A stretch of DNA of 64,000 nt from positions 4,002 through 68,001 of the forward strand of contig JACPHN010000225.1 in the NCBI GenBank assembly GCA_016188575.1. The letters run 5' to 3'. Of this stretch, positions 8,400-63,859 are shown piece by piece. Below the pieces are notes generated by a model, which was not told the origin of the DNA, ran no database searches, and was given only the letters and a program-made list of their open reading frames with translations. Numbering within the stretch: the stretch's first letter is position 1; each line of letters begins with the position of its first letter. Origin of the DNA: Candidatus Schekmanbacteria bacterium (GTDB lineage Bacteria > CSSED10-310 > JACPHN01). A program made the position numbers and the translations under genes.

Positions 8400-8524
8400 G
8401 CATCCGGGCGATCGGCAGGCTAGCGGTGCGCCGCAGGTCTCGAGCGTTTCTCGGAATGCTCTACCGCTACGCAGCAGTTTCCGTCAAGGGGGTTGATCTC
8501 GCTGAACCTACCGCCGCGATCGCC

Positions 8525-8554
8525 TTGACAATTGCGCTCGTCTTGTGCTTTACG
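8525..8554 (+). promoter_or_regulatory. Possible sigma-70 promoter for the Spo0M-like gene
   Basis: A perfect -35 box TTGACA (8525-8530) is followed after 18 bp by a weak -10 TTTACG (8549-8554), about 100 bp before the gene at 8654. The -10 match is poor, so this is tentative. Confidence 0.3.
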
Positions 8555-26600: not shown

Positions 26601-27505
26601 TGCCGGGGGAAATTGTGGCGCTGCTCAACCTTTGCAACATCCAGAGCGCCCTTGGAGACCTGAGCTCCGCGCTAGAAACGGCGCAGAAGTGCCTGGAGGT
26701 GTCGAAGCGGAGCGCAAGCTGGGCAATGATCACGGAGGCTGAGCTCGAGCTCGGCATCATCAATCACATCCGGTGGTTGCCGCGCGAGGCGCTCGGCCAC
26801 TTTTGCGCCGCGGAGGCGGCAGCGGCGAGCGCTCGGAATCCACCGCTGCAAGCCTCCGTGGCCGCGTATTTCGCCAGGTTTTTGTGGGACCTCGGCGACG
26901 CGCAGGCGGCAATCGCCATGTGGCGACAGGCTCAACAGACGTATGCGACGACCGGAACCAGCGACCGCGGCCGCACCATTACCGCATACGGTCTCTGGCG
27001 CGCGGCGCGAGACGCCGGGGCTCCGGGCGGCGACGTGGCGGCCGCGGCGAGTTTCCTGCAAGCGACCGCTGGCGAGAATACGGGTTGGGCCACAATCGCG
27101 CAGTTGGCGGCGGGGTCTGATGGCGGTCCGTCATCCGAGCTCGGGGTGCCGCTGGAGGCGATCGACGGCTGGGACCTTTCCGAGACCGTGCCGCTGGCGT
27201 GGTTCCTCCTGGCCGAGAACGGCGCCGCCGGCGCGCCGGACGAGGCGCTGTCCGCAGCTCGCAACGCCCTCAAGGTGTGCTCTACCGCGGGCGTGCGCGT
27301 CCTGCTGCCGGCGGTGTACCGCCTCATGGACCGCATCCTGGGCCGGCTCGGCGCCAGCAAGCGGCAGCAAACTCTGCGCGAGCGCGCCGCACGCGAGGCC
27401 GGCCACTGGCTGGCGTCATGTCCCGCGGAGCACCGCGACCATCTCGCCGCGCGGCCGGACCTGGCGTGGGCGATTGCGCTCGAGCTGCGGCAGCCGCACC
27501 CCTGA
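23612..27505 (+). CDS. Ser/Thr protein kinase with AAA ATPase and TPR repeats (second)
   Basis: About 1297 residues, the same architecture as the kinase at 9712-13371. The kinase domain starts near residue 45 (GPYRVEHLLGRGGQGAVFRC) with VAVKALL, HRDLKPQNIL, VDFGLAG and GTISYMSPEQ. The AAA/STAND module has P-loop IGESGIGKT near 370 and LLLVVDDLHWAEE near 490. TPRs run from about 800 to 1150 (EIRRKVADKAGAAGSLANLG and similar). The first ~30 codons are basic and poorly conserved in style, so the real start may be a TTG near 23698. Cytosolic. The substrate is unknown, but a membrane-anchored kinase gene follows within 95 bp. Confidence 0.9.
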   Translation: MRTIQRSDRLARQGQTSCRCLISRTSRPKLVELIGEELPGSFGPYRVEHLLGRGGQGAVFRCIDTRTGEAVAVKALLRAEGGAIPNLRREVRALQELHHPGVVRVLGSGEQAGLPWYAMEIVDGEPLMQHCRRRGHGGEGAHEQRAALTALRRVCEVLAYLHGEGVIHRDLKPQNILVTAAGRPVLVDFGLAGRFSHIKGREELTARAAVGGTISYMSPEQIAGLPTDARTDLYAVGCLLFEILAGRPPFVADTPYALLMAHYKEPAPAPSCFAPGLDGRLDALALGLLKKLPRERIGYAGTVASILAEVGARDGMFVDAPAPRPYLYRPDLSGRGQALEIIRSAVGRLAGGAGGVIFLIGESGIGKTRCAIEAVRIADELELAVLTGECEEGGRTALAAFRRPLLQLGDHCLAQGKEATHAVFAARGRVLGAFQPAIAALPGIAELPPPPELPGLAAVLRVQQFVVETLRAHAATTPLLLVVDDLHWAEELSVAVLEHLIDVISSESLPILLLASVRQEAMTGALQRLIEQSGGTTVALGRLSPPFVATMVGDMLALDPPPENLSAHIAEQTEGNPFFVAEYLRGAVDHGLLWRDEWGRWRVEDAVLVPGDASPYSPLPLPKAIRELVRKRLAALSAPARSLLQVAAAVGPVVDEELLQVIVAKGAGPCRETLARVDVGGLLRELTWRQMLEASEEGELRFSHARLVEAAYDEIEGAARTELHGVIADALGELPREGSPPLAAMAHHYELAGRAAEARRDYELAATSPGARQAPHEAVEFLRRAADLWGQESSEAARRKRAELLILAAHGAGKLGRMGEAAQVLLDAERDALLGKDDERALHALAMRVGILTYLGDPRAAAEAARAVAVPTASGTSKAAGYLTNNVGLLHFTRGEVASAKAHLLRALEIRRKVADKAGAAGSLANLGMLAQCQGKSEEAAHRFRAAIEIYRELDLRLDLGHVIANLAHIYASRSASHQALPLVTEALQIARDTFDVPGEIVALLNLCNIQSALGDLSSALETAQKCLEVSKRSASWAMITEAELELGIINHIRWLPREALGHFCAAEAAAASARNPPLQASVAAYFARFLWDLGDAQAAIAMWRQAQQTYATTGTSDRGRTITAYGLWRAARDAGAPGGDVAAAASFLQATAGENTGWATIAQLAAGSDGGPSSELGVPLEAIDGWDLSETVPLAWFLLAENGAAGAPDEALSAARNALKVCSTAGVRVLLPAVYRLMDRILGRLGASKRQQTLRERAAREAGHWLASCPAEHRDHLAARPDLAWAIALELRQPHP

Positions 27506-46325: not shown

Positions 46326-49300
46326 AAGCAACTTTCGTGTGCTCGCTCTTCCAACTGATGCGCGGGTCCACGTGGCTCGGCGCGATGGCGCTCGCGGCCG
46401 CGCTCGCCACAACGCCGCCACGGGTTCCTGCGGCGCCGCCCGCCACGGACCTGCACGTGCAGTCGGCGCCCAGTCGCCCCGTCGCTGGAGGTGCCGGACC
46501 AACCGTTGTGCCCAATCACTTCCTGCGCCGGTGGGATCCGGTGACTATCTTTTTCGATACGCCGCGGGGTCCCGCGGCGGCCGCACCTGAGGACCATCCA
46601 GAACGAATCGTCCGCTTTCTTCCCGAGCACGCCGGCGCCTTTTCCTGGCTCGACAGCACCACGTTGCAGTTTCGCCCCGCGGAGCCGTGGCCGTCATTGA
46701 CCACTTTCAAGTGGCAGGTAGACGGCAAGACCACCGAGCTTGCGACCCTGGTCGCCGCGCCGACGCGCACGATTCCCGCGCGCGACGCTACGGACCTGGA
46801 CCCCGTAGAGGCCATCACCTTGCAGTTCCCTGAACCCGTCGAACCAGCGGTGCTCGCGGCAATGGTCACCATCCAGGTTCGGGCTCCCCGCGACGGCGCG
46901 GGCCAATCACAGCTCATTACCAAAGACGACTACGAGCTCAAGGTGCTCGAGCGACCATCTCGCGCCGCCGAGGCGGTATACGTGCTCCAGCTTCGGCAGC
47001 CGATACCGTTCGGCCGGGAGGCAACGATTTCCATACGCCTTGCCGCGGATGATTCGGCGCCCGGATCTTCTTTGACCTACTCCTTCTCCACCGCTGAGCC
47101 GTTCCGCGTTGCCAATGTCGGCTGCTTGCAGGCCCGTGTTCCGATCAGCCCTGCGGGAAGCCGATTCACCCCGGAACAAATGCTTCAGTGCACTGGCGAG
47201 CGCACCGTGTCCGTGGAGCTCACCGCGGCGCCGGGCGCTGTCGGTGCCGTCGAAGGGCGAAGCCTGATTGGGTTCTCCCCTGCCGTCGCCGGCCTCGCCT
47301 ATGCCGTTGAGGGAAAAACGCTGCGGATCTCCGGGCAGTTTGCGGCCGAGCAGCAATACCGGGTCACCGTCAATCCGACGCCAATGCAGGACGCCAAGGG
47401 TCGCCCCCTTGAGCTTCAGGCAAGCAGCGAGCTCTATCTCAATTTTCGCCGCATGCCCGACTTTCTCCGCTGGACGCGCGGTGAGGCCATTGTCGAACGC
47501 CTGGGCCCGCAAATGGTCCCGATTGAAGGCAGAGGAGCGGAGCGGGTCGATCTGCGGATTTACCCTATTGATCCTGTCGATCCCTCGTTCTGGCCATTCC
47601 CGCGCGACGCGGTGACCGTCGACGAAAGCGTTCGGCCTGCAGGGCCGGGAGAGGAGCAGGCCGCCCCCATAGCCCCGAAACACTACCTATACGAGGGTGA
47701 TCTGGCAAGACAGTTGCCGCGGCTTGGTTCGCCGCCCTACTCCAACATCGTGTCCCTGCCGCTGAAAAAAGACGGTACCGCGGCCTCCTTTGGCCTTGAT
47801 CTCGCCGCGCCGCTTGCCCAGGTGCACGGCAAGGGAGCGCCCGGCACCTACCTCGTCGGCATCAGACCGCTTGATGGCACGAGTTTGCGCTCCTGGGTCC
47901 GCGTCCAGGCCACGGACTTGAGCCTCTCCACCGCGGAAGAGTGGGGTGCCGTCAAGCTCGTCGTGACCTCGCTCGCTTCTGCGGCGCCGGTGCCCGGCGC
48001 GCGAATTCGCGTCGAAGGCATGGATCCGCGCGGCCACTGGCTGCTCACCTGGGAGGGAACGACCAACGAGAGCGGCATCGTCACGTGGTCGCCGCCGGGG
48101 AGCACGCGCAACACCGTGCGACGCATCTCCGTGCGCAAGGGCGCAGATGCGCTGGTGCTCAATCCCAATACCGCACCCGACGAGTATCGCGACAACCTGT
48201 GGAGTGACAGCTCCGGTATCTGGCTGCAGTGGACCCAGTACGAGCTGAGCTCCCGCGCTCCGCGGGCCGAACAGGTCTGCCACATCTTCACGGAACGGCC
48301 CGTATATCGGCCTGACGAGCCCGTACACGTCAAGGGTTACGTCCGCGATCGTTACCAGGGCGCGCTATCAATAGGCGCCACCGCCGGGAAGCTCGTGGTC
48401 GAGGGGCCCGGGGAGCTCACCTGGACGTACCCAATCGCGCACGCGACAACGGGAAACTTCTATCATCGATTCGAGGAACCGGATCTACCGAGTGGAAGTT
48501 ACCTGGCGGCATTCGAAAACCGGGGCGGAAACCGCATCTGCAGCGTCAGCTTCAAGAAGGAGGCGTATCGACTTCCGACCTTCGAGGTTCGCCTCCACAG
48601 TCCAGATACCGTTCCATTGGACAAGCCCTTCGACGTCGCGCTGACCGCTGGCTACTATTCGGGTGGCAGCGCGGCCGAGCTTCCCGTCCAGTGGCGGGTC
48701 ACGCAGTTTCCGTTCACCTGGCAACCGAAGGAGCGAAAAGGATTTCAGTTTTCCTCCGACGCCAGGTATGGCTCGGACGGTACCGAGCCGTCGTCTGCCC
48801 AGCTCGACAGCAGTGGGGTAACGGATGGCAAGGGCGGTGCCGCGATTACCATAGATCCGACCAGCGAGCCGACCGCGGAGCCGCGAAGCTATGTCATCGA
48901 GGCCACCGTCACAGGGGCAGACGAGCAGACCGTGACGAGCACCCGCCGCGTGGTGGCGCTCCCCGCACTGACGCTCGGCGTGAAGGTTCCTCGCTACCTG
49001 GAGAAGGCCGCGGAAATCTCGCCGGAAGTCATCGCGGTGGGCGCTGACGATCAGTTGCTCACCGGCGAGCCGATCACGGTCAGGCTCTACCAGCGCCAGT
49101 GGCATTCACACTTGCAGGCGAGCGATTTCTCTGACGGCGTCGCCCGCTACGTGACCGATGTCGTCGAGGAGAAGATGATCGAGACCACCGTCGCTTCGGG
49201 AGCGGCCCCCGTCAGCGTGCCGCTCGCAATTTCGGAGGCCGGCGTCTACGTCGTAGAGCTTGAGGCACGCGACCGCCTCGGTCGGGCTCAGGCAGTCAAG

Positions 49301-52147
49301 GTGGATCTGTTCGCGGGAGGCGAGCAGGCGGTGGCGTGGTCGAAGCCGACGAGCAAGGTGTTCGCCGTCGCCCAGGACAAGCCGAGTTACAACCCCGGCG
49401 ACGAGGCCGTCCTGGTTCTGCAGAGCCCGTACCAGCAGGCGGAAGCCTTGGCGATCCTGGAGGCTCCGGACGGTAATCGCTACGAGTGGCTTGCGGTCAG
49501 AGGCGGCACGGCCAGCTATCGGCTCAAGGTCTTGCCCGCATACGTGCCCAGAGTGCCGGTGCACTTCGTGCTGATGAGGCCGCGAATCGCAGGCACGCAG
49601 CCGCAGGCGGGAAACGGAGTCGATCTGGGCAAACCGGCAACCATGGCGGCGACATCGTGGGTGAGGACCAATCCGGTCGAGTACACGGTGAAAGTGGAGC
49701 TGGCGCACCCCCAGCGCGCTCGACCCGGCGACGAGATCGAAGTCGGGATTTCCCTCAGCGATCCGCGGGGCCAGCCACGGCCCGGCGAAGTCACGCTGTG
49801 GCTCGTCGATCAGGCCGTGTTGGCGCTCGGCAAGGAGCGAGAGCTCGATCCCGTCAGCGATTTCATCACGCCGGTAGAGACGCGCCTCGCAGTCCACGAT
49901 ACCCGGAACATGGCAGTCGGTCTGTTGCCATTCGCCGAGAAACCCGGCGGGGACGAGGGTGAGGACGAGGCCGGCCTGCTCGACGGCGCCTCGCTTCGGC
50001 GAAAGTTTGAGCCCGTGCCGTTTTACGATCCCGCGATCGCCGTCGGGCCGGATGGCAAGAAGACGGTCTGGGTACGCCTTCCGGACAACGTCACGGTGTT
50101 CAAGATCAGAGCCAAGGCAGCGACCGGCGCCGACCGGTTCGGTTTCGCCACGGGTCAGCTTGCCGTGCGTTTGCCAATTGTGGCTCAGCCGGCTCTCCCG
50201 CGTTTCGTGCGCCCTGGGGACAGCTTCATCGCGCGCGCTTTCGGGCGCATCGTTGAGGGGGATTCCGGCGCGACGACCAGTGCGATTCGGATTGAAGGCC
50301 CCGGAACCAAGGCTGAGGACACCCGAGAGGTTTCCTTGCAGCAGGGGATTGCCACGGCAGTGGACGTGCCGGTCAAAGTCGCGCCTCCCGGCGCCGGAGT
50401 GCCCGGGCTCCTGACCGTCAAGGCGGCGTTCGAGCGCAAGTCGGACCGCGCCCGCGATGGCTTCGAGGTGACCCTGCCCATCGTGGATGATCGCCGTCCG
50501 GTGCGCATCCGCGAGATGATCGATCTGGCCCCCGGCGAACCTCACGAAATCCCGCGGATTGCCGAAGCGGTCCGCCCCGGAACCGTCGCGCGCCGGCTCC
50601 TGGTCTCGGACCAGCCCGCGGTCCTGCGTATGGCGGCGGCGCTCGATTTCCTGCACGAGTACCCATACGGCTGCACCGAGCAGCGGATCAGCAAGGCGAG
50701 AGCGCGTCTCGCGCTGAGAAAGCTCCGAGACCTCATCGCTGAGGAAGATGCAAATGAGGTGCTGGAAAAAACGGTCGCCGATACCCAGGAATGGATCGCC
50801 GGCACCGTGGACGACGCGGGTCTCTGCGCTTACTGGCCGGGAGGACGCGGCTATGTGTCGCTCAGCGCCTGGGCGCTGCAGTTCCTGGTGGAGGCGCGGG
50901 CAGCGGGCCTTCCCGTCGACACCGGCCTGTTCGACACGCTGACGCGGTCGCTGACGGCTGCGCTCCGTTCAGACTACACGCGCTTTGTCGGCGGGGAATC
51001 GTATGCCGAGCGAGTCTGGGCGCTTGCCGCCTTGAACGCCGCGGGAAGGGCGCAACCAGCCTATGCCGCCGAGCTCGCGCGAAGAACCCAGTATCTCAAC
51101 TTGGAGAGCCTGGCGCAGGTCGTCGTTGCGCTGCAGGGCGGAGCGGAACCCGCCGCGGCAGATGTGGTTGCGGCGCTGGTCGATGAGATGTGGAAGGACG
51201 TCGTGTTGCGGCTGCATCAAGGGAAACAGATTTTTGGCGGCCTGCAGGGTCGGCGCGGCGCGGCAAGCGACTTCCTTCTTGCGAGCGAAACCCGCTCGCT
51301 TGCGGAGATGATCCGCGCCTTGCACCGCATCGGCCGCACTGACGAGCGCTTTGACGCGTTGCTGCAGGGGCTGGTGACGCTCGGCCAGGAAACGGGGTGG
51401 GGCACCACCAACGCCAACGCGGCCGCGCTCCTCGCGCTTTCTGAGGTCTTCACCCCAAGACCGTTCGCAGGACCCGCGGCCAGGATTTTGGCTGCTTTCG
51501 GCGCCGATCAAAAGGAGGCCGTGATCTCCCCTGAGAGCCCGGTTGCCAGGCTGCACAGCGACAACGGCGATGCAGGAAAGGTCACCGCTGTTGCCGGAAC
51601 CGGACCCAGTATGCTGGTGGCGCGTCTGGACACGTCCTACGTGCCGGCGCAGCCGGCAGCCGAAATGGATCCCAAGGAGCAGGGGTTCGTGGTGTCCCGG
51701 GAGAGCAACCGGGTTGTCGACGCAAGGGCGCCCCTGGAGAAAACTCCGATCGCCAAGGGTGGCACCCGGCTGGCCCTGGCCATGGGGACGATGGTCGAGG
51801 AGCACGTGCAGGTGGTCAATCCGCAGGAACGGCATTTTGTCGCGATCGTCGTGCCTCTGGCCGCGGGGCTCGAAGCGCTGAATCCGGGCCTGGAGACGGC
51901 GCCCCCGGAGGCGAAACCGAGCGGCCGGAACACGGTGGAGCCGACGTACGTCTCGATAATGGACGACCACGTCGGGTTTTATTTCGATACGCTGGCCGCG
52001 GGAACGTACGACTTTTACTTCCGAGCGAGGGCGACGGCCGAAGGGACGTTTTCGCAACCTCCGGCGCGCGCCGAAATGATGTATGACGAGGCGGTGTGGG
52101 GGCAATCGGCGGGGGCTCTTGTCGCCGTTCAACCCGTCAAGCAGTAG
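46322..52147 (+). CDS. Bacterial alpha-2-macroglobulin with thioester
   Basis: A 1941-residue protease trap. A Sec signal (STWLGAMALAAALATT) is followed by many macroglobulin (MG) domains; no lipobox is seen, unlike the E. coli homologue, so it may be soluble in the periplasm or anchored through its partner. MG/bait landmarks include ERPVYRPDEPVHVKGYVRDR near 660 and KPSYNPGDEAVLVLQSPY near 1020. The thioester motif is intact: Cys1451-Thr-Glu-Gln1454 in EYPYGCTEQRIS, within the alpha/alpha-toroid domain that continues to about 1750. Cleavage of the bait exposes the thioester and traps the attacking protease. It overlaps the upstream giant gene by 4 bp and pbpC by about 65 bp. Confidence 0.95.
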   Translation: MKATFVCSLFQLMRGSTWLGAMALAAALATTPPRVPAAPPATDLHVQSAPSRPVAGGAGPTVVPNHFLRRWDPVTIFFDTPRGPAAAAPEDHPERIVRFLPEHAGAFSWLDSTTLQFRPAEPWPSLTTFKWQVDGKTTELATLVAAPTRTIPARDATDLDPVEAITLQFPEPVEPAVLAAMVTIQVRAPRDGAGQSQLITKDDYELKVLERPSRAAEAVYVLQLRQPIPFGREATISIRLAADDSAPGSSLTYSFSTAEPFRVANVGCLQARVPISPAGSRFTPEQMLQCTGERTVSVELTAAPGAVGAVEGRSLIGFSPAVAGLAYAVEGKTLRISGQFAAEQQYRVTVNPTPMQDAKGRPLELQASSELYLNFRRMPDFLRWTRGEAIVERLGPQMVPIEGRGAERVDLRIYPIDPVDPSFWPFPRDAVTVDESVRPAGPGEEQAAPIAPKHYLYEGDLARQLPRLGSPPYSNIVSLPLKKDGTAASFGLDLAAPLAQVHGKGAPGTYLVGIRPLDGTSLRSWVRVQATDLSLSTAEEWGAVKLVVTSLASAAPVPGARIRVEGMDPRGHWLLTWEGTTNESGIVTWSPPGSTRNTVRRISVRKGADALVLNPNTAPDEYRDNLWSDSSGIWLQWTQYELSSRAPRAEQVCHIFTERPVYRPDEPVHVKGYVRDRYQGALSIGATAGKLVVEGPGELTWTYPIAHATTGNFYHRFEEPDLPSGSYLAAFENRGGNRICSVSFKKEAYRLPTFEVRLHSPDTVPLDKPFDVALTAGYYSGGSAAELPVQWRVTQFPFTWQPKERKGFQFSSDARYGSDGTEPSSAQLDSSGVTDGKGGAAITIDPTSEPTAEPRSYVIEATVTGADEQTVTSTRRVVALPALTLGVKVPRYLEKAAEISPEVIAVGADDQLLTGEPITVRLYQRQWHSHLQASDFSDGVARYVTDVVEEKMIETTVASGAAPVSVPLAISEAGVYVVELEARDRLGRAQAVKVDLFAGGEQAVAWSKPTSKVFAVAQDKPSYNPGDEAVLVLQSPYQQAEALAILEAPDGNRYEWLAVRGGTASYRLKVLPAYVPRVPVHFVLMRPRIAGTQPQAGNGVDLGKPATMAATSWVRTNPVEYTVKVELAHPQRARPGDEIEVGISLSDPRGQPRPGEVTLWLVDQAVLALGKERELDPVSDFITPVETRLAVHDTRNMAVGLLPFAEKPGGDEGEDEAGLLDGASLRRKFEPVPFYDPAIAVGPDGKKTVWVRLPDNVTVFKIRAKAATGADRFGFATGQLAVRLPIVAQPALPRFVRPGDSFIARAFGRIVEGDSGATTSAIRIEGPGTKAEDTREVSLQQGIATAVDVPVKVAPPGAGVPGLLTVKAAFERKSDRARDGFEVTLPIVDDRRPVRIREMIDLAPGEPHEIPRIAEAVRPGTVARRLLVSDQPAVLRMAAALDFLHEYPYGCTEQRISKARARLALRKLRDLIAEEDANEVLEKTVADTQEWIAGTVDDAGLCAYWPGGRGYVSLSAWALQFLVEARAAGLPVDTGLFDTLTRSLTAALRSDYTRFVGGESYAERVWALAALNAAGRAQPAYAAELARRTQYLNLESLAQVVVALQGGAEPAAADVVAALVDEMWKDVVLRLHQGKQIFGGLQGRRGAASDFLLASETRSLAEMIRALHRIGRTDERFDALLQGLVTLGQETGWGTTNANAAALLALSEVFTPRPFAGPAARILAAFGADQKEAVISPESPVARLHSDNGDAGKVTAVAGTGPSMLVARLDTSYVPAQPAAEMDPKEQGFVVSRESNRVVDARAPLEKTPIAKGGTRLALAMGTMVEEHVQVVNPQERHFVAIVVPLAAGLEALNPGLETAPPEAKPSGRNTVEPTYVSIMDDHVGFYFDTLAAGTYDFYFRARATAEGTFSQPPARAEMMYDEAVWGQSAGALVAVQPVKQ

Positions 52148-54551
52148 CGAATCGGAAGCTGCGCGGCCGGCGCCCCGAAGCGCCCGCCGCGCCGGCCTCC
52201 TGCGGGCGACAGGTGTCGTCGCCGGGACGCTGCTGGCACTGGTCGCTGCGGCGCTGCTGTGGTGTGCGCGGCTGGTGGCGCCGGCGCCGACACCGCTGCT
52301 CATGGCATTCGGCGGGGAGGCTCTGGCGCTCGCCGCCGGCGATGCTGATGCCGATGCCGATGCCGAGCTCGGCTACTGGCCCACCGCACCGTTGCCCGGC
52401 CGGGTTGCGGCCGCTACGGTGGCCGTTGAGGACCGCCGATTCTACCAACACCCCGGCGTGGATCCGATCGCTGTCGTGCGCGCCTTCTTTCAGAATCTTG
52501 AGGGGCGGCGGAGGATTTCCGGCGCCTCTACAATTGCCATGCAGGTCGCCCGCATGCAGCGAGGCGGACGGCGCACGTACGGGGCCAAGATCGCGGAAGC
52601 ATTGCAGGCGCTGGCACTGACGGCCAGGTTCGGCCGCGATCGCGTGCTCGAGCACTACCTGCGAATCGCGCCGTATGGGAACCGGATTCGCGGTGTCGGC
52701 CTGGCCGCGCGCATCTATTTTCAAAAGCCCGTCGCCGACCTGAGCTGGGCAGAGACGGCGTTTCTTGCCGCTCTCCCACAGGCCCCGACGACCATGAATC
52801 CCTATGATGCCGTAGGGCAGACGCGGGCAAAAACCCGGGCACGGCGTATCCTTCACCTCCTCGGTGAGCGCGGCGCGGTAGGCGGGAGCGAGCTCCGACT
52901 CGCTCTCGATCAGCTCGACTTCCTGCGCGTCCATTCCTTTCCTCGGCGGCCAGAGATCACCCTGCATGCCGTGCTGCGGATGCAACAGGAGCTCTCGGCC
53001 CCGGAGCTCGCCGCATCGGTCTGGCATGATCCGGTGGTTCGCACCAGCATTGATCTCGATCTTCAGGAGTACGTGCAACAGGTGGCCGCCCAGGCGCTCG
53101 ACGGGTGGACTCGGCTCGGCGCGGGCAATGTGGCCGTCCTGGTAGTCGAGGCACCGAGCGGCGAGATTCGCGCCTGGCTCGGTTCGGCGGCATACGGCCG
53201 GGCGAGCAAAGGTGGCGCCATCGACTTTACCGGCGTGCCCAGAGGTTCCGGGAGTACGCTGAAGCCGTTTCTTTATGGGTACGCGTTGGACTCGGGAGCG
53301 ATCGCTCCAAACACGGTGCTCGACGATTTGCAGCGCGGCGCCGGCGGCATCGGCAACGCGGACGAACGATTTCTGGGTCCGCTGATGCCCCGCGTGGCCC
53401 TGGCGAGCTCCCGTAACGTGCCGGCGGCGCATCTCCTCGCGAAAATTGGAGTGGACACGGGAGCCGACTACCTCCACCGGCTCGGCCTCGGTTCCGCAGG
53501 GGACACCGGCGAGCGCTACGGACTGGGCCTTGCTGTCGGGGGGTTTCCCGTCACGCTTTACCAGCTCGCCCGGGCCTATCAGGCGCTGGCGCGTGACGGC
53601 ATGCTGGGCGATCTGGTGCTTTTCCCTGGCCGCCAGAAGCCGGTGGCCAGGCGGGTGCTCTCAGCCGGCACCGCGCGCCTGATCACGCTGTTTCTGTCGA
53701 GCGACCAGGCGCGCCTGCCCACCTTTCCGCGCAAGGGGGCGACAGAATTCCCGTTCGCGGTGGCGGTGAAGACCGGGACCACATCCAACTACCATGATGC
53801 GTGGACGGTCGCGTATTCGAAGCGCTACCTGGTTGCCGCATGGGCGGGGCATCCGGATCACCGTCCCATGAACCGTCTGAGCGGCTCCCGCTCAGCCGCC
53901 CGGCTCGTGTCCCAGATCCTCCGCCATCTCCACAAGGGTGAGCTCGACGGCCTTTCCGAGTCGTCTTTCCCATCGCCCGAGGGGTACCGTGCGGCGGAAA
54001 TCTGTGCGCTGTCCGGCAAGCTCCGGACCAACGCGTGTGAGCGGACGTTCGTCGAGTGGTTTGCTCCCGGAAAGGAGCCTACCGAAGCGTGCCCCATTCA
54101 CGTCAGGCTCGCCGTTGACCCAGTCATGCGCGCCGGCGATGAGACGACGGTGGCACAACGCACGTTTTATGACCTCCCGGCGCGCTACGCGGCATGGGCG
54201 GCGGCTTCCCACCTTCCGGCGCCACCGGAGCCGCGTGATCTCGCCGCGCCTGGGGCCAGACAGAGCACGGCGAGCGGGCGTGCCGGCGCGATTTCCATTA
54301 CCAGCCCGGTGGCAGGTCAGCACGTCTTGCGCGACCCGGAAGCGCCTCCGGAGCTGTCTACCATCGAGCTCCGAGCGACCGTTCCCCGGTCCGTGCCCGC
54401 GGTCGTCTGGTACGTGGACGGTGAAGCGTATCGCACTTCCGCGGCGCCCTATGGCGTGCGGTGGAAGCTGCGGCCGGGAGCTCACACCGTGCAGGTGCGG
54501 GCTCCAAGCATCGCGCAGGAGTCGCGTCCGGTGCGGATTACCGTCGATTGA
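52083..54551 (+). CDS. pbpC: Penicillin-binding protein 1C
   Basis: 822 residues. One membrane helix (ATGVVAGTLLALVAAALLWC) precedes the glycosyltransferase 51 domain (catalytic Glu116 in AVEDRRFYQHPGVD; GASTIAMQVARMQ). The transpeptidase has Ser391-x-x-Lys394 (GSGSTLKPFLYGYAL), SSRN, and Lys563-Thr-Gly-Thr (VKTGTTSNYHD). A BiPBP_C beta domain closes the protein (SITSPVAGQHVLRDP, VWYVDGEAYR). It makes and cross-links peptidoglycan at the inner membrane. The pairing with alpha-2-macroglobulin is a known arrangement thought to guard and repair the envelope after attack. The ATG at 52083 overlaps the previous gene. A short Asp-Ala repeat (GDADADADAELG) follows the membrane helix. Confidence 0.95.
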   Translation: MTRRCGGNRRGLLSPFNPSSSSESEAARPAPRSARRAGLLRATGVVAGTLLALVAAALLWCARLVAPAPTPLLMAFGGEALALAAGDADADADAELGYWPTAPLPGRVAAATVAVEDRRFYQHPGVDPIAVVRAFFQNLEGRRRISGASTIAMQVARMQRGGRRTYGAKIAEALQALALTARFGRDRVLEHYLRIAPYGNRIRGVGLAARIYFQKPVADLSWAETAFLAALPQAPTTMNPYDAVGQTRAKTRARRILHLLGERGAVGGSELRLALDQLDFLRVHSFPRRPEITLHAVLRMQQELSAPELAASVWHDPVVRTSIDLDLQEYVQQVAAQALDGWTRLGAGNVAVLVVEAPSGEIRAWLGSAAYGRASKGGAIDFTGVPRGSGSTLKPFLYGYALDSGAIAPNTVLDDLQRGAGGIGNADERFLGPLMPRVALASSRNVPAAHLLAKIGVDTGADYLHRLGLGSAGDTGERYGLGLAVGGFPVTLYQLARAYQALARDGMLGDLVLFPGRQKPVARRVLSAGTARLITLFLSSDQARLPTFPRKGATEFPFAVAVKTGTTSNYHDAWTVAYSKRYLVAAWAGHPDHRPMNRLSGSRSAARLVSQILRHLHKGELDGLSESSFPSPEGYRAAEICALSGKLRTNACERTFVEWFAPGKEPTEACPIHVRLAVDPVMRAGDETTVAQRTFYDLPARYAAWAAASHLPAPPEPRDLAAPGARQSTASGRAGAISITSPVAGQHVLRDPEAPPELSTIELRATVPRSVPAVVWYVDGEAYRTSAAPYGVRWKLRPGAHTVQVRAPSIAQESRPVRITVD

Positions 54552-56764: not shown

Positions 56765-57577
56765 TCATTGATTTTCTGGAGCCAGCCGAAAAGTCAGCAC
56801 GCCGATGCCCGGAGTACTGCCTTCGGAAAGCAGCATCTCGGTCTCGAAGCTCGCGTAGTCGTGGTGGACGGCCTTGACACGATAGATTCCCGGGGCAAGT
56901 CGCGTCCCAATCTGATCTGAGTCGAAGAGGCCGCCGGAGTTTGTCCTCCGGAGAAGCAGGACATCTTGTCGCCGGATCTGTCCCGGCAATGGCGCAACAC
57001 CAGGCTTGAAGACGCAAAATGTTGCATCCGCAAGCGGTTGGCCGTCGAGGTCGATCATCCGTACGACGACTCGGAGCGCGTTTGCAGTTGACATCGCGGC
57101 TTCGGTCTGTTCCGGCGCAAGCAGAGGTGGCGGCGCAGCGCTGGCGGTTTCCGCGGTCGCCAAGCTCGTGTGAAAGGTCTCCGTTGGCACAACGACTGGC
57201 GCAGGCATCGGGGGCTCTGGCGCGGCGACCGTAAAGGCACTTCCTGCGTGTTGCTGAGCGGCAACTGTGGCGACGAAACGTTCGATTTCTTCAGCAAGTT
57301 GTCCAGGATCCGCGGTTGGATCGAGACCAGCCTTCAAGATTCGGATCGACGCCTCGACATCCGGTGCGTTTGGATCGAGCCCTACTTGACGAAGGCAGCG
57401 CTCGAGAATCGGGTGGAGGGCCGCCCAAACTGCCTGGGACAGTGCGGGCGCCACGGAGCTTCCGGCGTGCTGCTGAACGACGTTCTGCTCGACTGCGGTT
57501 GCGAGACTTTCAGCGGTTGCACGCGGAAAACCACCAAGAAGGCCGCGTGACTCCAAACCGCGCGCGATTCCATTCAC
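56765..57577 (-). CDS. Hypothetical protein with transthyretin-like C-terminal domain
   Basis: 270 residues. The first half is helical with two QQHAGS segments (VVQQHAGSSVAPALSQAVWA and VAAQQHAGSAFTVAAP) around a conserved-looking core (VWAALHPILERCLRQVGLDP). A Pro/Ala-rich linker leads to a beta-sandwich of the carboxypeptidase-regulatory/prealbumin type (VVVRMIDLDGQPLADATFCV, TRLAPGIYRVKAVHHDYASF). No signal peptide is seen. Its start overlaps the stop of the broken TPR gene, placing it last in the caspase/DUF4384 operon. The trypsin-like protein of that operon carries a similar C-terminal module. Function unknown. Confidence 0.75.
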   Translation of the reverse strand: MNGIARGLESRGLLGGFPRATAESLATAVEQNVVQQHAGSSVAPALSQAVWAALHPILERCLRQVGLDPNAPDVEASIRILKAGLDPTADPGQLAEEIERFVATVAAQQHAGSAFTVAAPEPPMPAPVVVPTETFHTSLATAETASAAPPPLLAPEQTEAAMSTANALRVVVRMIDLDGQPLADATFCVFKPGVAPLPGQIRRQDVLLLRRTNSGGLFDSDQIGTRLAPGIYRVKAVHHDYASFETEMLLSEGSTPGIGVLTFRLAPENQ

Positions 57578-58061
57578 TTGGGATTCCTTGCCACCTCGTT
57601 CGATGAGAAGCGCCGCGATCTGTCACAGCGTGACTTGCTGGCCGCGAATAACACATTGCTGCCTGTAGATAGTTTTTCCAGAAACGTAATGGTTTTCGCT
57701 GAGTCGCCAGAGAGCCGGTAGTCATTGAGAAACGCTCCGCCGGCTTGATCGCGTTCCCCAAGCTGTGCCAACACTTGACCGAGGCTCAACCAGGCTGACG
57801 ATCGCGTGGGCGATGTTGCGAGGACCTTGAAAAGAATCGTCTTTGCTTCGTCAAGGCGATTTGCTTCAAGATACGCGAAGGCGAGGTCGGTTTGAACCTC
57901 GATGTCCGCGGAGTCGGCGTCCAGGGCCTGATGGGAGCGTGGGTCATTTCGACGGAACGTTTGGCCGCGCATCTGGCCGCGACCGGATCGCGCTGGACCG
58001 TCCACGCGAGAACGCCGAGGTCGAAATGCGCCTCGGCGCGAGTTGGATCAAACGATCGCAC
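57574..58061 (-). pseudogene. Frameshifted TPR-repeat gene
   Basis: From GTG 58061 the frame encodes RSFDPTRAEAHFDLGVLAWT, a typical TPR start, then loses sense near 57955. The continuing TPRs lie in the next frame (ALDADSADIEVQTDLAFAYL, EANRLDEAKTILFKVLATSP, SSAWLSLGQVLAQLGERDQA) to the stop at 57574. One indel explains the break. It lies 36 bp after the caspase gene. A functional copy would encode about 160 residues, presumably a docking protein for the operon's products. Confidence 0.7.
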
Positions 58062-58097
58062 GCCACGGGCGAAGCGAACGCATGCGTGGATCTCGAA

Positions 58098-59675
58098 TCA
58101 TTCTCGCGTCTCCACCACGACCATCGCCGCCTGCCAGCTCGCGGTATCCCCCCACAGGTCGCGGCCGCCGCCGCTGCCGCTGCCGCCATCCCGCCGGGTT
58201 GCCTGACCCACCACCGCATCCTGCAGCTTCGCGAGGCCGAGCCGGTTGAACACCTCGGCCCACGTCATGCTCACCTCCTCCCCAAGCGATACGGGAGCCA
58301 TCGACAGCAGCGCCACGAGCACGTCGCGGCCGAATGGAGCCTGCACGGGAAAGGAGTAGGCGGCGTTACGCGGGATCGTGACACTGCCCGCCGCGACCTT
58401 GCCGTCGCGATCGTTGTCGTTCGGGAAGATGCGCGTGGCGACCTGCTGCTGGCTGAACGCCAGCACATAGAGATAACCGGGGGTGTCGGTTGTGACCTCG
58501 AAATCCAGCGATTCGCCGCTACGGTAGAACGGCTTGTCGCCCCGCGGGCGGATGCTCACGCGGATCGGCGACCGCGGGTTGCTCAACGCCACCGCGGGCG
58601 CCTGTTCCCACGTTGCAAAGATCGGAACGTCATCCAGGGGGACCGACGACAGCACCTCCACCTGTGGCTGCTGATCGCCGTCGAGCGACCCCGCCGCGTG
58701 CAGAGCGGCAATCCGTTCGGTAAGGCGCTGCCGAAGCTCGCGCAAGGTGGGGCGGGCACCTCCTTGGCTCGCCACGAAGAGGTAGGAAAGCGCTCCCCGT
58801 AGCTTGCCGTCTACCTCCAGCGGGTAGGCGCGCTGAGTGGGCGCCGCCGCCGAGATCACCACCGCACCCGATACCTTGCCCAGATGCGTGCCCTGCACGA
58901 AGGCGGCGGATGCCGGCTCGAGCCCGCGGGCGGTTGCCGAGGGCACGAGAACATATCCATCATCGCCGCCGATGCCGCGGGCTCGGTCGGGACCGAGGCC
59001 GAGCGACGGGGCCAACAGCGCGAGCTGATCCGGACGGGGCAAATACCGGGCGCCGCCGCCGCGCGGAAAGCGGCTCAGCTTGGGCATACCGCGCGCGATC
59101 GTCCCTGAATGGCATGAGTCGAACACCAACACGGCGCGACGGCCCGACAACCGCGCGATCAGCTCGTCGAAGGTGTCGTCTCGGATCTGCCCTTGGCCGG
59201 CCGCGACCGTCGGGTCCACGTCGTAGGCCGCCAGCGTCTCGTCGAAACCATCGTCGGTCTCGTCGCCGTTGTCGTCCGGCAGTTGCGATCCGTGGCCCGC
59301 GTAGAGAAAGAACACGCGATCGCCGGGTTGACTGCCGGCGATCAGCCATTCGCGAAAGGAGGAGACGATGCCGGCGGCGGTCGCTTCACCATCCAGGAGC
59401 ACCTTGACGGAATCGGGCGCGAAGCCGAACGACTCCTGCAGGAAGCGAGCGGTCGCCGTCGCGTCGAGCTGGCAGCCGGGGGTCGCGGGCACGCGCGGAT
59501 CACCATACCGCTCAATACCGACCAGAAGGGCGCGATCGCTTCCCCTGGCCATCGTGGACGCTGCACCAGAGACGATTACCATGGTCAGGACCGCTTTGCG
59601 CAGCAGACCCGCCAGTGGCCGGTGCTCGCGGCCACCGCCGCGAAGGGCGCGGCTCACCGATGCCTGCTGGGTCAT
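58098..59675 (-). CDS. Exported caspase-like peptidase (C14) with DUF4384 domain
   Basis: 525 residues. A hydrophobic N terminus (LLRKAVLTMVIVSGAASTMA) marks a signal peptide or anchor, so the peptidase should act outside the cytoplasm. The caspase fold is complete: RALLVGIERYGDP, catalytic His128 in LYAGHGSQLPDD, Cys188 in VFDSCHSGTIARG, and the acidic loop DDNGDETDDGFDETLAAYDV. A DUF4384 beta domain at about 370-450 follows (FYRSGESLDFEVTTDTPGYL, ATRIFPNDNDRDG), then a helical WAEVFNRLGLAKLQDAVVGQ tail. The start overlaps the stop of the OmpA gene (ATGA). It shares the operon with a trypsin-like protease and three DUF4384 proteins. Substrate unknown. Confidence 0.9.
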   Translation of the reverse strand: MTQQASVSRALRGGGREHRPLAGLLRKAVLTMVIVSGAASTMARGSDRALLVGIERYGDPRVPATPGCQLDATATARFLQESFGFAPDSVKVLLDGEATAAGIVSSFREWLIAGSQPGDRVFFLYAGHGSQLPDDNGDETDDGFDETLAAYDVDPTVAAGQGQIRDDTFDELIARLSGRRAVLVFDSCHSGTIARGMPKLSRFPRGGGARYLPRPDQLALLAPSLGLGPDRARGIGGDDGYVLVPSATARGLEPASAAFVQGTHLGKVSGAVVISAAAPTQRAYPLEVDGKLRGALSYLFVASQGGARPTLRELRQRLTERIAALHAAGSLDGDQQPQVEVLSSVPLDDVPIFATWEQAPAVALSNPRSPIRVSIRPRGDKPFYRSGESLDFEVTTDTPGYLYVLAFSQQQVATRIFPNDNDRDGKVAAGSVTIPRNAAYSFPVQAPFGRDVLVALLSMAPVSLGEEVSMTWAEVFNRLGLAKLQDAVVGQATRRDGGSGSGGGRDLWGDTASWQAAMVVVETRE

Positions 59676-60463
59676 CTAGCACCTCCGAGGTTGACCACGG
59701 TGACGCGGCGATTGAGAGCACGGCCGTGTTCCGTATCGTTGGATGCAACTGGTGCCGCGGCCCCTATTCCGGAATAGGCAAAACGGTCAGCCGGCAGGGC
59801 AAACTTCTCGATGAGTGTCCGACCGACCGCCATGGCGCGCCGTTTCGACAGTTCCAGGTTGTACGGTTCCGCGCCCACGGAATCCGTGTGCCCTTCGAGA
59901 AGAGCTCGCGACGAGCGAAGATTTTCGGATTGTAAGGCTTTCGCGATCTCAGCGATCTGCTTCAGCGAGTCTGGCGTGATGCGATCGGAGTTGAAATCGA
60001 ACTGAATGTGGAGGTCGACCTCCGGACGAACGCCGAAACCGCGCGCGCGTTCTCCGCTCGGCATCCGCAGCGATCTGCTGATCTGTTCGGCGTCCACGAG
60101 CGCTTCGGGATCGACGTGCGACAGGGCGCTCTGGAGCCGCTGGCGGTACTCCGACTCGTGAGCCAGCAGTCCGTCAGGATCCCCGCGGGTTCCCTCGGTT
60201 TGCAGGAGCAAGAGAAACCGGCGGTAGGCGAGGACCGCGGCCGAGAAGTCACCCTGTTTTGCGCGCACATCCCCCAGCCCCGCGTAAGCGGTGCCGGAAT
60301 CGGGATCAAGGCGGGTCGCGGCCTCGTAAAACCGGGCAGCGTCGGCGATTTGACCGCGTTCCTCAAACGGTGAGCATCCCTCCATTGCCAGGGCCAGGCA
60401 GGTAGCGTGTCGGAGGGGTCGGTTCCGCACCCCTCGACGCTGTGCGCGTTTGGTCATGAGCAT
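59672..60463 (-). CDS. OmpA-family protein with TPR domain
   Basis: 263 residues. A short signal-like N terminus includes a possible lipobox (LALAMEGC). A TPR pair occupies about 35-85 (DAARFYEAATRLDPDSGTAY, AGLGDVRAKQGDFSAAVLAY). The C-terminal OmpA peptidoglycan-binding domain runs from about 145 (IQFDFNSDRITPDSLKQIAE, LLEGHTDSVGAEPYNLELSK, RRAMAVGRTLIEKFALPADR, LNRRVTVV), with the aspartate and arginine that bind diaminopimelate. It should tether the operon's products to the cell wall from the outer membrane or periplasm. Overlaps the caspase start by 4 bp. Confidence 0.9.
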   Translation of the reverse strand: MLMTKRAQRRGVRNRPLRHATCLALAMEGCSPFEERGQIADAARFYEAATRLDPDSGTAYAGLGDVRAKQGDFSAAVLAYRRFLLLLQTEGTRGDPDGLLAHESEYRQRLQSALSHVDPEALVDAEQISRSLRMPSGERARGFGVRPEVDLHIQFDFNSDRITPDSLKQIAEIAKALQSENLRSSRALLEGHTDSVGAEPYNLELSKRRAMAVGRTLIEKFALPADRFAYSGIGAAAPVASNDTEHGRALNRRVTVVNLGGAR

Positions 60464-60473
60464 CGCGGTTCCG

Positions 60474-61244
60474 CTACTCGTGCTCGAGCGTCAGCACCGC
60501 GGCGAGGGAGCCGCTGCCGCCGACGACGACGGGTCCGGCGGCGCCCGCCGCCGCCGCGGCGGCGCCAGTTGTCACCGCGCCGCTACCGCCACCCGGCGGC
60601 GTGTAGGTCATGTCGCGCGCACGCGCCTGCAGCGCCGCCAGCACCTGGCCTTGCAATCCCGCGTTCGGCGCCCCCCCGCTGTACCCCGTGGCCTGCTCGA
60701 TGTTGCCAAACAACACCTGGTCGGGCTGCTCCGCCCACAGCGCGTAGACCGACTCCACCCCGGGCGTGGCGTCGAAGGTGAACCAACCCTCCGCCGGAAT
60801 CACGATTTCCTGACCACCATGGACGCGGTTGACGCCACCCGCGATCCGCTGGTCCGGGTAGAGCAGCGAGGTCTTGCCGGACGAACCGCGCACCAGCAGA
60901 TACAGGAAACCCGTCCGACTCGGTTGCACGCCGATGCGCACCCCGTCGCCGCTGCGGAACGGGTAGGTCGCCTCGGTGCGCACCTGTCCTCCCTGCGCGG
61001 TCTGGCGGTAGATCGACAGGGCCAGCTCGGCGGCGGCCGCCGGAGCCGCCGCCGGCGCTGCCGGAGCCACGGCCACGGCGGGCACGGACACCGTAGACGC
61101 CGGAGCCGCTGGCGCCACGCTTTGCGCTGCCACGTCCGCCGCGCGGCTCGCGGGAGCCTCGGCCGACTGTTGAGCGCAGGCCAGGGCCAGGGCAGCCCAT
61201 CCCACCACGGCGAACCCGAGCACGGTTCTCTTTTGTTTGTTCAC
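60474..61244 (-). CDS. DUF4384 lipoprotein (paralogue C)
   Basis: 256 residues with a lipoprotein signal (VVGWAALALAC, cysteine near residue 23). An Ala/Pro/Val-rich linker (about 25-75) leads into DUF4384: YPFRSGDGVRIGVQPSRTGF, LYLLVRGSSGKTSLLYPDQR, IVIPAEGWFTFDATPGVES. The C terminus has a QVLAALQARARDM helix and a hydrophobic, Gly/Ala-rich strand ending in LTLEHE. The closing L-x-L-x-H signature is shared with the two other DUF4384 paralogues upstream in the operon, so all three derive from one ancestor. Role unknown. Confidence 0.85.
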   Translation of the reverse strand: MNKQKRTVLGFAVVGWAALALACAQQSAEAPASRAADVAAQSVAPAAPASTVSVPAVAVAPAAPAAAPAAAAELALSIYRQTAQGGQVRTEATYPFRSGDGVRIGVQPSRTGFLYLLVRGSSGKTSLLYPDQRIAGGVNRVHGGQEIVIPAEGWFTFDATPGVESVYALWAEQPDQVLFGNIEQATGYSGGAPNAGLQGQVLAALQARARDMTYTPPGGGSGAVTTGAAAAAAGAAGPVVVGGSGSLAAVLTLEHE

Positions 61245-61249
61245 GATGC

Positions 61250-62365
61250 CTACTCCTCTCGTTTGAGCTCGATTTGGAAATCCTGGACGGCGCCGACCTC
61301 GATTTTCTCGAGGACCGTCCGGTACTGGGGATGAACCACCTTCACGAGGTAGCGCCCGGGAACGAGGCGGCGGTTGAGCGTGAGCTCTCCGTGAAAGCCG
61401 CTGCGCGCGTAGGCCATCAGATCGCGCTCGCGAACCGTTCCGGCCGCGCTCGCGGGACCCGGCCGCAGAAAACCGACCACCGCTCCGGGGATGGGGGCCT
61501 TGGAGACCTCGTCGACGACCGTACCCGTCACCCGCACGGCGCCCGACTCGCTCGCGGACGGCGGCGTGATCGCGGCCGTGCCGGCCTCCGGGTGCTCCGC
61601 GGCGAGCCGTCCCAGGAACTCCCGAATCGCCCCGATCGACCGCGCCTCGCCTACCCGGCCGAGCGTCAAGGTGCCGATCGGTAGGTCTCCATCCCCGAGA
61701 AACGGCACCTGGCTGTCGGCGCGCACCCGCGTGGGCGCGCCAACCAGATCGCCCTCTTCATCGATCACCGCCCCGCCCGACGCGCCTTCACCGAGCGCGT
61801 CGGCGACCGCGATCCAACCGTTCTCGTCGTCGATCGCCACGATGGCGGACTCCAGCACCGTGGCCGTGGGTGTACCGTCCGTCGGGTACGCTATCAACGT
61901 CACCCGCGAGCCGAAGGACAGGCCGCTCATGCGACCCAAGCGCAGGTACGCAAAGGGCCGCGCCGACCCCTCGGCAGGCGCAAGCGCGCGCAACAACGCC
62001 AGATCGAGGGCCGCGTCGAACCCCACCAGTCGCAGCTTGGTCGCTTGTGCGGGCGCCGCCCACGGCCGCGCAGGGTCGGATACACCCGCCCAGATCTCCG
62101 CGCCAGGCCGACCGCCGGCTCCAAACACCACGTGGTGGTTGGTCAGCACCAGACCAGACGGCGTGATTACCACCCCGGACCCCGACCCCTGCCCGCGAAA
62201 GGCGCCGTGCTCATCCACTTCTCCCGTGATGATGCGCACCGTCGCCGCGCGGGCGTTGGCGATCGCGGCGCTATCCGCTGCCGCCGCGGCGGTGGCAGCG
62301 GTCGCCGCCAGCACGACCAGAGCCGCCACGGCCTCCCCCCATGCTCTCGCTGCCTTCATGGCCAC
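61250..62365 (-). CDS. Exported trypsin-like serine protease with transthyretin-like tail
   Basis: 371 residues (GTG 62365; the ATG two codons later at 62359 has AGGTG closer to the right distance). The signal peptide is Ala/Val-rich (AVAALVVLAATAATAAAAA). The trypsin/HtrA-type triad is intact: His78 in VLTNHHVV, Asp121 in DAALDLALLRA, Ser196 in GEGASGGAVIDEEG. There is no PDZ domain. Instead a carboxypeptidase-regulatory-like beta domain fills about 275-365 (VTGTVVDEVSKAPIPGAVVG, LVPGRYLVKVVHPQYRTVLE). It is periplasmic by inference and lies between two DUF4384 genes (2- and 5-bp gaps). It could activate the caspase or DUF4384 partners by cleavage. Confidence 0.9.
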   Translation of the reverse strand: MAMKAARAWGEAVAALVVLAATAATAAAAADSAAIANARAATVRIITGEVDEHGAFRGQGSGSGVVITPSGLVLTNHHVVFGAGGRPGAEIWAGVSDPARPWAAPAQATKLRLVGFDAALDLALLRALAPAEGSARPFAYLRLGRMSGLSFGSRVTLIAYPTDGTPTATVLESAIVAIDDENGWIAVADALGEGASGGAVIDEEGDLVGAPTRVRADSQVPFLGDGDLPIGTLTLGRVGEARSIGAIREFLGRLAAEHPEAGTAAITPPSASESGAVRVTGTVVDEVSKAPIPGAVVGFLRPGPASAAGTVRERDLMAYARSGFHGELTLNRRLVPGRYLVKVVHPQYRTVLEKIEVGAVQDFQIELKREE

Positions 62366-62367
62366 AC

Positions 62368-63062
62368 CTATTGATGGTTCAGGGTGAGGGTGAAGCCTTG
62401 CGGAGACGCCAGCGCGCTCGCCGAGCTCAGCAAGAAACCGTCGTTGCCGTCGACGCTCAGCACCAGGTCCCGCCCCCGCGTCAACGCGCGACTATTGAGC
62501 GCGGCAAGGATCTCCTGTTCCTCGTCGGCGCTGGCGGCTCCTCCCGTCGAGGCCGCTGCCGCGGGCGGCGCGACCGCCGCGGCGGTACCGCCGCTCGACG
62601 GCGACGAAGTCAGTTGCGCGACCTCCGGAATCGGCTGCGTCGACATGATGAACGTCAGCGTTTCCTTTCCTGGATTGTCGTCGAAGACGAACCACCCGCT
62701 TCCCGGGGCACCTGGTAGTCGCTGGTGTGGGTAACCGCGTTGCTCACCCCGCGGCTCGGGAACAGCAGAGCTTTTTTGCCCGTGCTGCCGATGTTGACGA
62801 CCGCGACGTAACCCGCGAAGTTGACCGCGAAGTGAAACCGCACCTCGTCGCCGGAGCGAAAGCTGCTCGTCGGTGCCACCATGCCGATCTGTCCGCCGCG
62901 ATTGCGTTCGATCGTCACTTTCGCCCCCGGCTGGCCCGCGGCGGTGTTCGCCGAGCTGCTCGGCTGGTAGCTCAGAAACAGATCGCGCGAACCGTCTCCC
63001 CACGCCGTGGCCGAGGCCACCGCCAGAACCGCCGAGAGTACGCTGACCGCGATGCGTCGCAT
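62368..63062 (-). pseudogene. DUF4384 protein gene with one frameshift (paralogue B)
   Basis: From ATG 63062 (GGAG 7 bp upstream) the frame gives a signal peptide (RRIAVSVLSAVLAVASATAW) and the first half of DUF4384 (SSFRSGDEVRFHFAVNFAGY, VAVVNIGSTGKKALLFPSRG). Near 62702-62712 the frame breaks in a C/G run (minus-strand CCCCGGG). The rest continues in the next frame (GSGWFVFDDNPGKETLTFIM ... ALTRGRDLVLSVDGNDGFLL, ending LTLNHQ). One extra G would restore a ~230-residue protein like its two paralogues. A base-calling error is as likely as a true mutation. Confidence 0.8.
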
Positions 63063-63076
63063 GACATGGCTCCTTT

Positions 63077-63859
63077 CTAGTTGTGCCGCAGGCGCAACCG
63101 AAAAACGGTAAAGCCCTTCTTCTTGCCGACATTGACGGAATAGGTCGAATCGTAGATCGCACCGGTATCCGTGGCGGCGGCGGCAGCAGCGGGGGACAGC
63201 ACCAGGTCGCGATTGGCGGCGGGCGGTGCGCTGGTGCCGAGGATACTCAGCACCTCCTCCTCGACGCTGCCCGCGGGCGGCGCCGCGGGCGGCGCGTCAC
63301 CGCTGCTCGCGGCCGGGATGAGGTAGGGGATCACGTCCATTTCCTTTTCGCCGAGAATGAACAGAATCTCCTCGCTGCCCGCGTTTTCATCGAAGTTGAA
63401 CCACTGCTTGCCCGGTATGACCAGCTCGCGGCCGCGCTGGACGCGATTGCGCCCCCCGTCGATGCTCTTGTGGGGGTAGAGCAGCGTCGTCTGCCCGGAG
63501 CTGCCCCGTTGCACGATGTAGAGATACCCCTTGCCGTTGGGCTCGACGCCGAATCGCACCGCGTCACCGCTGTGAAAGGTCGTCTGGGTGGATACCTGGC
63601 GAAAATCGCAGGCGTCGTTTCGCTGGTAAAGACGCACCCGCAAGCCGGGGTGAGCGGCGACACCCGAGCTGTCGGTCGCGAAATACAGGTCGCGGGCCTT
63701 GTCAGTGACCTCTGCTGGTGACTCGGCGGCGGGCGCGCGCGGGGTTATTCCCTCGGCAGCCGCGGGCGCGAGGCGGCCGCCGCCCAGCACGAGCGGTAGA
63801 CCGAGGAGAAGTGCCGCCGGCAACCCGATCGCGAAGGGACGGAAGACTTTCTGTATCAT
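63077..63859 (-). CDS. DUF4384 protein (paralogue A), first gene of the operon
   Basis: 260 residues from ATG 63859, chosen because the signal peptide begins there (IQKVFRPFAIGLPAALLLGL). DUF4384 at about 75-185: TTFHSGDAVRFGVEPNGKGY, LYIVQRGSSGQTTLLYPHKS, GRELVIPGKQWFNFDENAGS. The tail has EEEVLSILGTSAPPAANRDL followed by VLS and a closing FTVFRLRLRHN, the shared C-terminal signature of the paralogues. Two cysteine-free strands around the RGSSG loop are the best conserved part. It heads the eight-gene caspase/trypsin operon, with the promoter expected in the 42-bp divergent spacer or inside the neighbouring gene. Confidence 0.87.
   Translation of the reverse strand: MIQKVFRPFAIGLPAALLLGLPLVLGGGRLAPAAAEGITPRAPAAESPAEVTDKARDLYFATDSSGVAAHPGLRVRLYQRNDACDFRQVSTQTTFHSGDAVRFGVEPNGKGYLYIVQRGSSGQTTLLYPHKSIDGGRNRVQRGRELVIPGKQWFNFDENAGSEEILFILGEKEMDVIPYLIPAASSGDAPPAAPPAGSVEEEVLSILGTSAPPAANRDLVLSPAAAAAATDTGAIYDSTYSVNVGKKKGFTVFRLRLRHN

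Follow-up and report, generated by a model that had tools for sequence, protein, structure and literature searches.

A proposed DUF4384-based, wall-tethered periplasmic protease module encoded by an eight-gene cluster of a Candidatus Schekmanbacteria genome

The window, by which we mean the complete stretch of 64 000 nucleotides analyzed here, ends in a cluster of eight closely packed minus-strand genes (56765–63859) that, in the explanation we consider best and to which we give a probability of about one half, would encode a protease module tethered to the wall in the periplasm, using DUF4384 domains for proteolysis triggered by events at the envelope or by contact. The gene cluster itself is real, as had been described from the DNA sequence alone; what triggers the module, in which order its parts act, what it cuts and with what outcome we only infer. 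The arrangement is far beyond chance because its order recurs in another phylum, and, since bacteria of distant lineages have these partners again as neighbours or as fusions, it looks like a widespread and uncharacterised protease system of the bacterial envelope.

The genes are found in the order D1, D2, TRYP, D3, TPR-OmpA, CASP, TPR remnant and TTR (Table 1); they are separated by 14, 2, 5 and 10 bp at four junctions, abut at one and overlap by 4 bp at two. On its 5′ side, 5′ of D1, the cluster reaches the end of the contig, which is also the end of the window. The genome is of 9.2 Mb and comes from a rare phylum, of which seven further genomes were available for comparison. The sequence-only reading had listed three DUF4384 paralogues, a further DUF4384 domain in the caspase and an OmpA/TPR protein, and Pfam supported all of these assignments, with D1, D2, D3 and CASP each scoring above the DUF4384 (PF14326) gathering score of 27 bits. 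It had also regarded the TPR gene as broken, which was correct, but had missed that the same is true for D2, which is read from 63062 to 62655 and then in another frame to 62368, so that the DUF4384 domain and the C-terminal half are separated by a split near 62.7 kb. Third-codon GC was about 0.61 in the TPR and TTR genes compared with 0.77–0.85 in D1, D2, TRYP, D3 and CASP, TPR-OmpA having 0.69, and cluster membership is therefore least secure for these last two genes. No counterpart of the two was found at the equivalent position in other genomes, where only the transthyretin-like domain recurs, fused to a C14.

Table 1. Genes of the DUF4384 protease cluster, with positions in the window
Gene	Product	Coordinates	Strand	Support
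D1	Secreted DUF4384 protein, 260 aa	63077..63859	-	Pfam PF14326 2.2e-13, 50.5 bits
D2	Secreted DUF4384 protein, reading frame broken in this assembly	62368..63062	-	PF14326 5.4e-9, 36.4 bits
TRYP	Secreted Trypsin_2 serine protease, HtrA-like, with C-terminal transthyretin-like domain	61250..62365	-	Pfam
D3	DUF4384 lipoprotein, lipobox LALAC (heuristic)	60474..61244	-	PF14326 3.6e-10, 40.2 bits
TPR-OmpA	TPR repeats and OmpA peptidoglycan-binding domain	59672..60463	-	OmpA 5.7e-21, TPR_16 1e-7
CASP	Secreted metacaspase-like C14 peptidase with C-terminal DUF4384	58098..59675	-	Pfam
TPR	Remnant of a TPR protein with one or more frame breaks	57574..58097	-	TPR_19 1.2e-9
TTR	270 aa, transthyretin-like C-terminal domain	56765..57577	-	Related to TRYP C-terminus

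An AlphaFold model of D1 (mean pLDDT 66.6, with a core of about 84–91) gave an Ig-like sandwich and, beyond a linker of low confidence, a confidently predicted strand at the extreme C-terminus (residues 250–259), which, to judge from the alignment ranges, would form part of the sandwich. The CASP model also closes with a strand following a disordered linker, and our guess would be that cutting the linker before the terminal strand may release that strand. Fold comparisons of DUF4384 yielded weak matches to Ig-like sandwiches (best Z 7.2; best Foldseek E 4e-3), from which no relative could be named, and neither a PDB sequence match nor a solved relative was found. The best NCBIfam matches of TPR-OmpA were YfiB and YiaD, both below cut-off, and TTR, having no Pfam match, aligned with the C-terminus of TRYP at 31% identity (1.4e-4).

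The catalytic residues of both proteases were intact and at the positions that the sequence-only reading had given. TRYP matched Trypsin_2 at 4e-20 (73.6 bits versus a cut-off of 27.6), and its triad of H78, D121 and S196 was kept in all 15 aligned proteases, the window enzyme included. Its closest NCBIfam relatives were DegP and DegS, below cut-off (42.5 versus 416 bits), with no PDZ domain among its Pfam matches. The S1 residue expected to set P1, at a position assigned by sequence, is not Asp in either TRYP or the Blastocatellia enzymes, which look HtrA-like at this site; among the aligned proteases, a trypsin-type Asp was present only in a Rhizobium fusion. As the S1 residue of TRYP is not Asp, cleavage after Arg or Lys is not expected, and activation of the caspase by the trypsin in this manner was not supported.

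For CASP, the match to Peptidase_C14 was at 5e-15 (56.2 bits versus a cut-off of 21.4) and that of its C-terminus to DUF4384 at 1e-15 (57.6 bits), and the dyad of H128 and C188 was invariant among 21 homologues. In a model built with 21 sequences (mean pLDDT 72.8), the caspase domain has a predicted metacaspase fold, with metacaspases as the best fold match (Arabidopsis MC4, Z 24.9, rmsd 2.7 over 232 aligned residues), in agreement with a profile search (Yca1, 5e-47). Acidic residues go together with basic P1 specificity in metacaspases, and from this knowledge the residues D71, D134, D142, D166, D167 and D186, all invariant in the homologue alignment, would be compatible with a basic P1 in CASP and with calcium dependence. 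Against the profile of the EACC1-associated caspase (NF047832), CASP scored 42.5 bits, under the curated cut-off of 140.

The sequence-only reading had made its case dependent upon conservation of the gene order in related genomes, and at one Blastocatellia locus (L168) the order D1-D2-TRYP-D3 was indeed kept gene for gene. Counterparts were found in the same places for D1 (33% identity, 5.6e-43), for the two halves of D2 (31 and 36%), for TRYP (39%, 1.4e-83) and for D3 (47%, 1.3e-40), the gene at the corresponding place being the best match for each of D1, TRYP and D3 and likewise for the D2 halves. The D2 homologue of this locus is one intact ORF covering both halves, and D2 homologues were also found at two further loci (L094 and L096). 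Directly before the D1 counterpart, at 7027–8547 of the locus, lies a gene for a C14 protein having a tail that matches TTR (32% identity, 8e-16), and a caspase-DUF4384 gene is found about 4 kb away on the opposite strand; an OmpA gene was not found at L168. Altogether, 12 TRYP homologues below 1e-12 were present in nine of 162 Blastocatellia genomes, with two tandem DUF4384 genes directly before 11 of the 12. These loci usually have a membrane Ser/Thr kinase upstream and often FHA proteins downstream. In the loci examined with Pfam, a kinase with an FGE domain, and with a membrane helix where tested, precedes the DUF4384 pair in L170, L171 and L182, while FHA proteins follow the trypsin in L169, L170 and L186, those of L169 and L170 carrying a transglycosylase SLT domain on the far side of a membrane helix. 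At L186 and L187 this kinase/DUF4384/trypsin/FHA module is located next to type VI secretion genes.

A scan of named genomes, using three sequences as queries, gave 67 caspase loci. An OmpA gene was found within 6 kb at 11 of 29 loci with a C14+DUF4384 fusion compared with none of 35 C14 loci without DUF4384 (Fisher p 5e-5), and a further DUF4384 gene at 17 of 29 compared with none of 35 (Fisher p 4e-8), both p values ignoring shared ancestry. The OmpA-linked loci were distributed over Acidobacteriota (L094), Alphaproteobacteria (L099, L102, L104, L112, L113 and L119), Gammaproteobacteria (L116), Campylobacteraceae (L121), Myxococcota (L122) and Bacteroidota (L118). Adjoining sets of caspase, DUF4384 and OmpA genes are present on an Azospirillum plasmid, and in another genome from the phylum of the window a subtilase-DUF4384 gene, a DUF4384 gene and two C14-DUF4384 genes are distributed over two contigs. 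Some of the parts are also fused: L094 has a C14+OmpA fusion, and a Rhizobium plasmid operon (L093, 3234–13014) encodes a DUF4384+TPR+OmpA fusion, a C14 protein and a trypsin+C14+DUF4384 fusion, after which come genes for a serpin and a kinase. Because such fusions join the parts, a functional link between them is likely, to judge from these gene architectures. The two halves, D1-D2-TRYP-D3 and OmpA-caspase, were fully joined only in the window cluster. In the fused C14 domain of L093 the His is replaced by Gln, giving a Gln-Cys dyad; operons of this type have probable homologues on dozens of Rhizobium plasmids, and homologues of the serpin were found in 88 Rhizobium plasmid records. At L099 (4447–12960) and similar Rhizobiales loci, a pair of caspases (C14 and C14+DUF4384) is tied to a redox module, together with a ferric-reductase-like membrane protein, a multihaem cytochrome c with DUF4384 and TPR-OmpA.

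With regard to cellular location, export signals in nearly all of the proteins had been claimed, and a simple heuristic gave five of eight: signal peptide-like N-termini in D1, D2, TRYP and CASP and a lipobox in D3, with none seen in TPR-OmpA, TPR or TTR as assembled. By heuristic, signal-like N-termini were present in 37 of 43 C14+DUF4384 proteins versus 47 of 99 other C14 proteins. Cytochromes of the c-type mature outside the cytoplasm, and in Rhizobiales DUF4384 is found at the end of a protein that has c-type cytochrome domains and carries four CXXCH motifs; in two kinases, furthermore, one membrane helix separates DUF4384 from the kinase domain. Because of this multihaem cytochrome c fusion and the receptor-kinase topology, an extracytoplasmic position of DUF4384, and with it a periplasmic location, is well supported by inference, as is also the anchoring of the module to the wall. 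The earlier observation was partly confirmed and its interpretation partly supported: conserved order, partners and extracytoplasmic location speak for an envelope module with caspase and trypsin built around DUF4384, though not for a trypsin that activates the caspase.

We propose that the exported metacaspase-like C14 enzyme and the HtrA-like S1 enzyme would act in the periplasm together with a DUF4384 set consisting of the soluble D1 and D2, the lipoprotein D3 and the tail of CASP, with TPR-OmpA and the lipid anchor of D3 keeping the proteases near the wall. The Ig-like DUF4384 sandwich would be a probable shared domain for ligand binding or docking. Upon envelope damage or foreign contact the DUF4384 parts may bind or release a ligand, by which change the proteases would become positioned or unleashed, and, once freed, they could cut envelope proteins or invading proteins. 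Where, in other lineages, these parts are paired with transmembrane Ser/Thr kinases and with FHA proteins, of which some have a transglycosylase domain, such partners may carry the signal into the cell or restructure the wall. A wider reading, which we put forward only tentatively, is that of a widespread and hitherto unrecognised extracytoplasmic protease signalling system in which Ig-like DUF4384 would couple wall-anchored caspase and HtrA-like proteases, in some lineages with a serpin, to Ser/Thr kinases that span the membrane and to FHA proteins that cut the wall, as a periplasmic counterpart of the extracellular protease cascades of animals.

Several other explanations should be weighed against a wall-tethered protease module of this kind. 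A periplasmic cell-death or defence function, where attack on the envelope by phage or competitors would free the caspase to kill the cell or cut the invader in the manner of the cytosolic caspase/trypsin systems, seems unlikely to us, although bacterial conflict systems typically employ caspase and trypsin as their proteases (PMC7159879) and some of their variants are OmpA-, PEGA- or wall-associated. The serpin-type brake in Rhizobium, the presence on plasmids and the patchy occurrence (7 of 162 Blastocatellia genomes at E below 1e-40) would also agree with defence. However, none of the conflict-system core components MoxR-vWA, STAND and gasdermin was seen beside the window cluster, gasdermin being absent from the Pfam matches of the genes scanned and the 5′ flank falling past the contig end, and the PADLOC matches were solely generic (caspase, ZorB through its OmpA/MotB domain, and a reverse-transcriptase-fused protease). 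Quality control of envelope proteins, with the HtrA-like protease and the caspase degrading damaged periplasmic proteins while DUF4384 and OmpA proteins serve as adaptors and anchors, could account for the non-Asp S1 site and for DegP and DegS being the best NCBIfam relatives of the trypsin, albeit below cut-off. We nevertheless consider it improbable, as a PDZ domain was not found, the distribution is patchy and the serpin and kinase partners suggest a regulated use; caspases are, moreover, specific processing enzymes and do not degrade proteins in bulk.

The frame breaks may be due to sequencing error or misassembly, or may be real decay. That they signify a decaying or inert copy, no longer working in this genome, would be in line with the broken D2 and TPR genes and with TPR-OmpA and TTR lacking an export signal, but such decay is rather doubtful considering that the catalytic sites of the two proteases are undamaged, as are D1, D3 and the OmpA domain, and that metagenome assemblies often carry indel errors. 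Least probable by far is an accessory module of type VI secretion that uses the kinase-FHA pathway. The L186 module adjoins TssK (confirmed) and the L187 module probably does so too, TssC is located on the same contigs as these two modules, and a C14-DUF4384 gene lies near a VgrG-type gene in L078; yet TssK was not found in the window genome (G000, 93.8% complete), in G002, G134 and G239 or in several other carriers, and TssC was present in six of nine trypsin carriers versus 74 of 162 genomes overall. Type VI secretion as a general partner was rejected on this lack of TssK matches in the window genome and in many carriers.

Work on bacterial caspases has mainly dealt with those that kill from within the cytosol during phage defence and with those of cyanobacteria. 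All protein families of the module are already known, and DUF4384 is listed in the literature as an accessory domain of cyanobacterial orthocaspases. Trypsin-p20(QC)-DUF4384 proteins have been noted in Alphaproteobacteria (Klemencic et al. 2019, PMC6426788), and the previous claim that the module is undescribed thus does not extend to the trypsin-p20-DUF4384 fusion; it stands for the exported module with its partners, as we found no account in the literature of an exported module that includes OmpA, kinases, a serpin or DUF4384 genes in tandem. Those pseudo-orthocaspases have the same three domains in one protein, and the L093 protein shares their layout and Gln-Cys dyad, but in that work they were mentioned as an architecture only, whereas in the window the genes are separate and the caspase has an active His-Cys dyad and is accompanied by three DUF4384 proteins and an OmpA anchor. 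The conflict systems of Kaur et al. 2020 (VMAP, iSTAND, EACC1; PMC7159879) share caspase and trypsin peptidase modules, patchy distribution and some wall-associated variants with the cluster, which differs in having no visible NTPase core and in that its proteases are exported. Compared with the metacaspases yeast Yca1 and Arabidopsis MC4, CASP has the same predicted fold and catalytic dyad but is exported and carries a C-terminal DUF4384. TRYP, similarly, shares an exported Trypsin_2 domain and an HtrA-like S1 site with the HtrA/DegS envelope proteases and differs in its transthyretin-like C-terminus, its operon with DUF4384 and in that no PDZ domain was found. If caspases do exist in a conserved exported form that is connected with wall anchors, HtrA-like proteases and receptor kinases, and in Rhizobium also with a serpin, bacteria would possess regulated circuits of proteases that operate beyond the cytoplasm and the unknown domain DUF4384 would gain a testable role, with the Rhizobium plasmids offering culturable test strains.

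Elsewhere in the window, three large Ser/Thr kinases are encoded at 9712–13371 (-), 23612–27505 (+) and 27601–30027 (+), two of them with AAA_16 and TPR and one with PEGA. An ORF of 1811 aa without Pfam match at 1e-5 (40890–46325, +) directly precedes the gene for a bacterial alpha-2-macroglobulin, which lies beside that for a penicillin-binding protein with a BiPBP_C domain (46322–54551, +), the usual A2M-PbpC pair. This pair is convergent with the protease cluster at a distance of about 2 kb, and the proximity of a periplasmic protease trap to proteases may be a coincidence.
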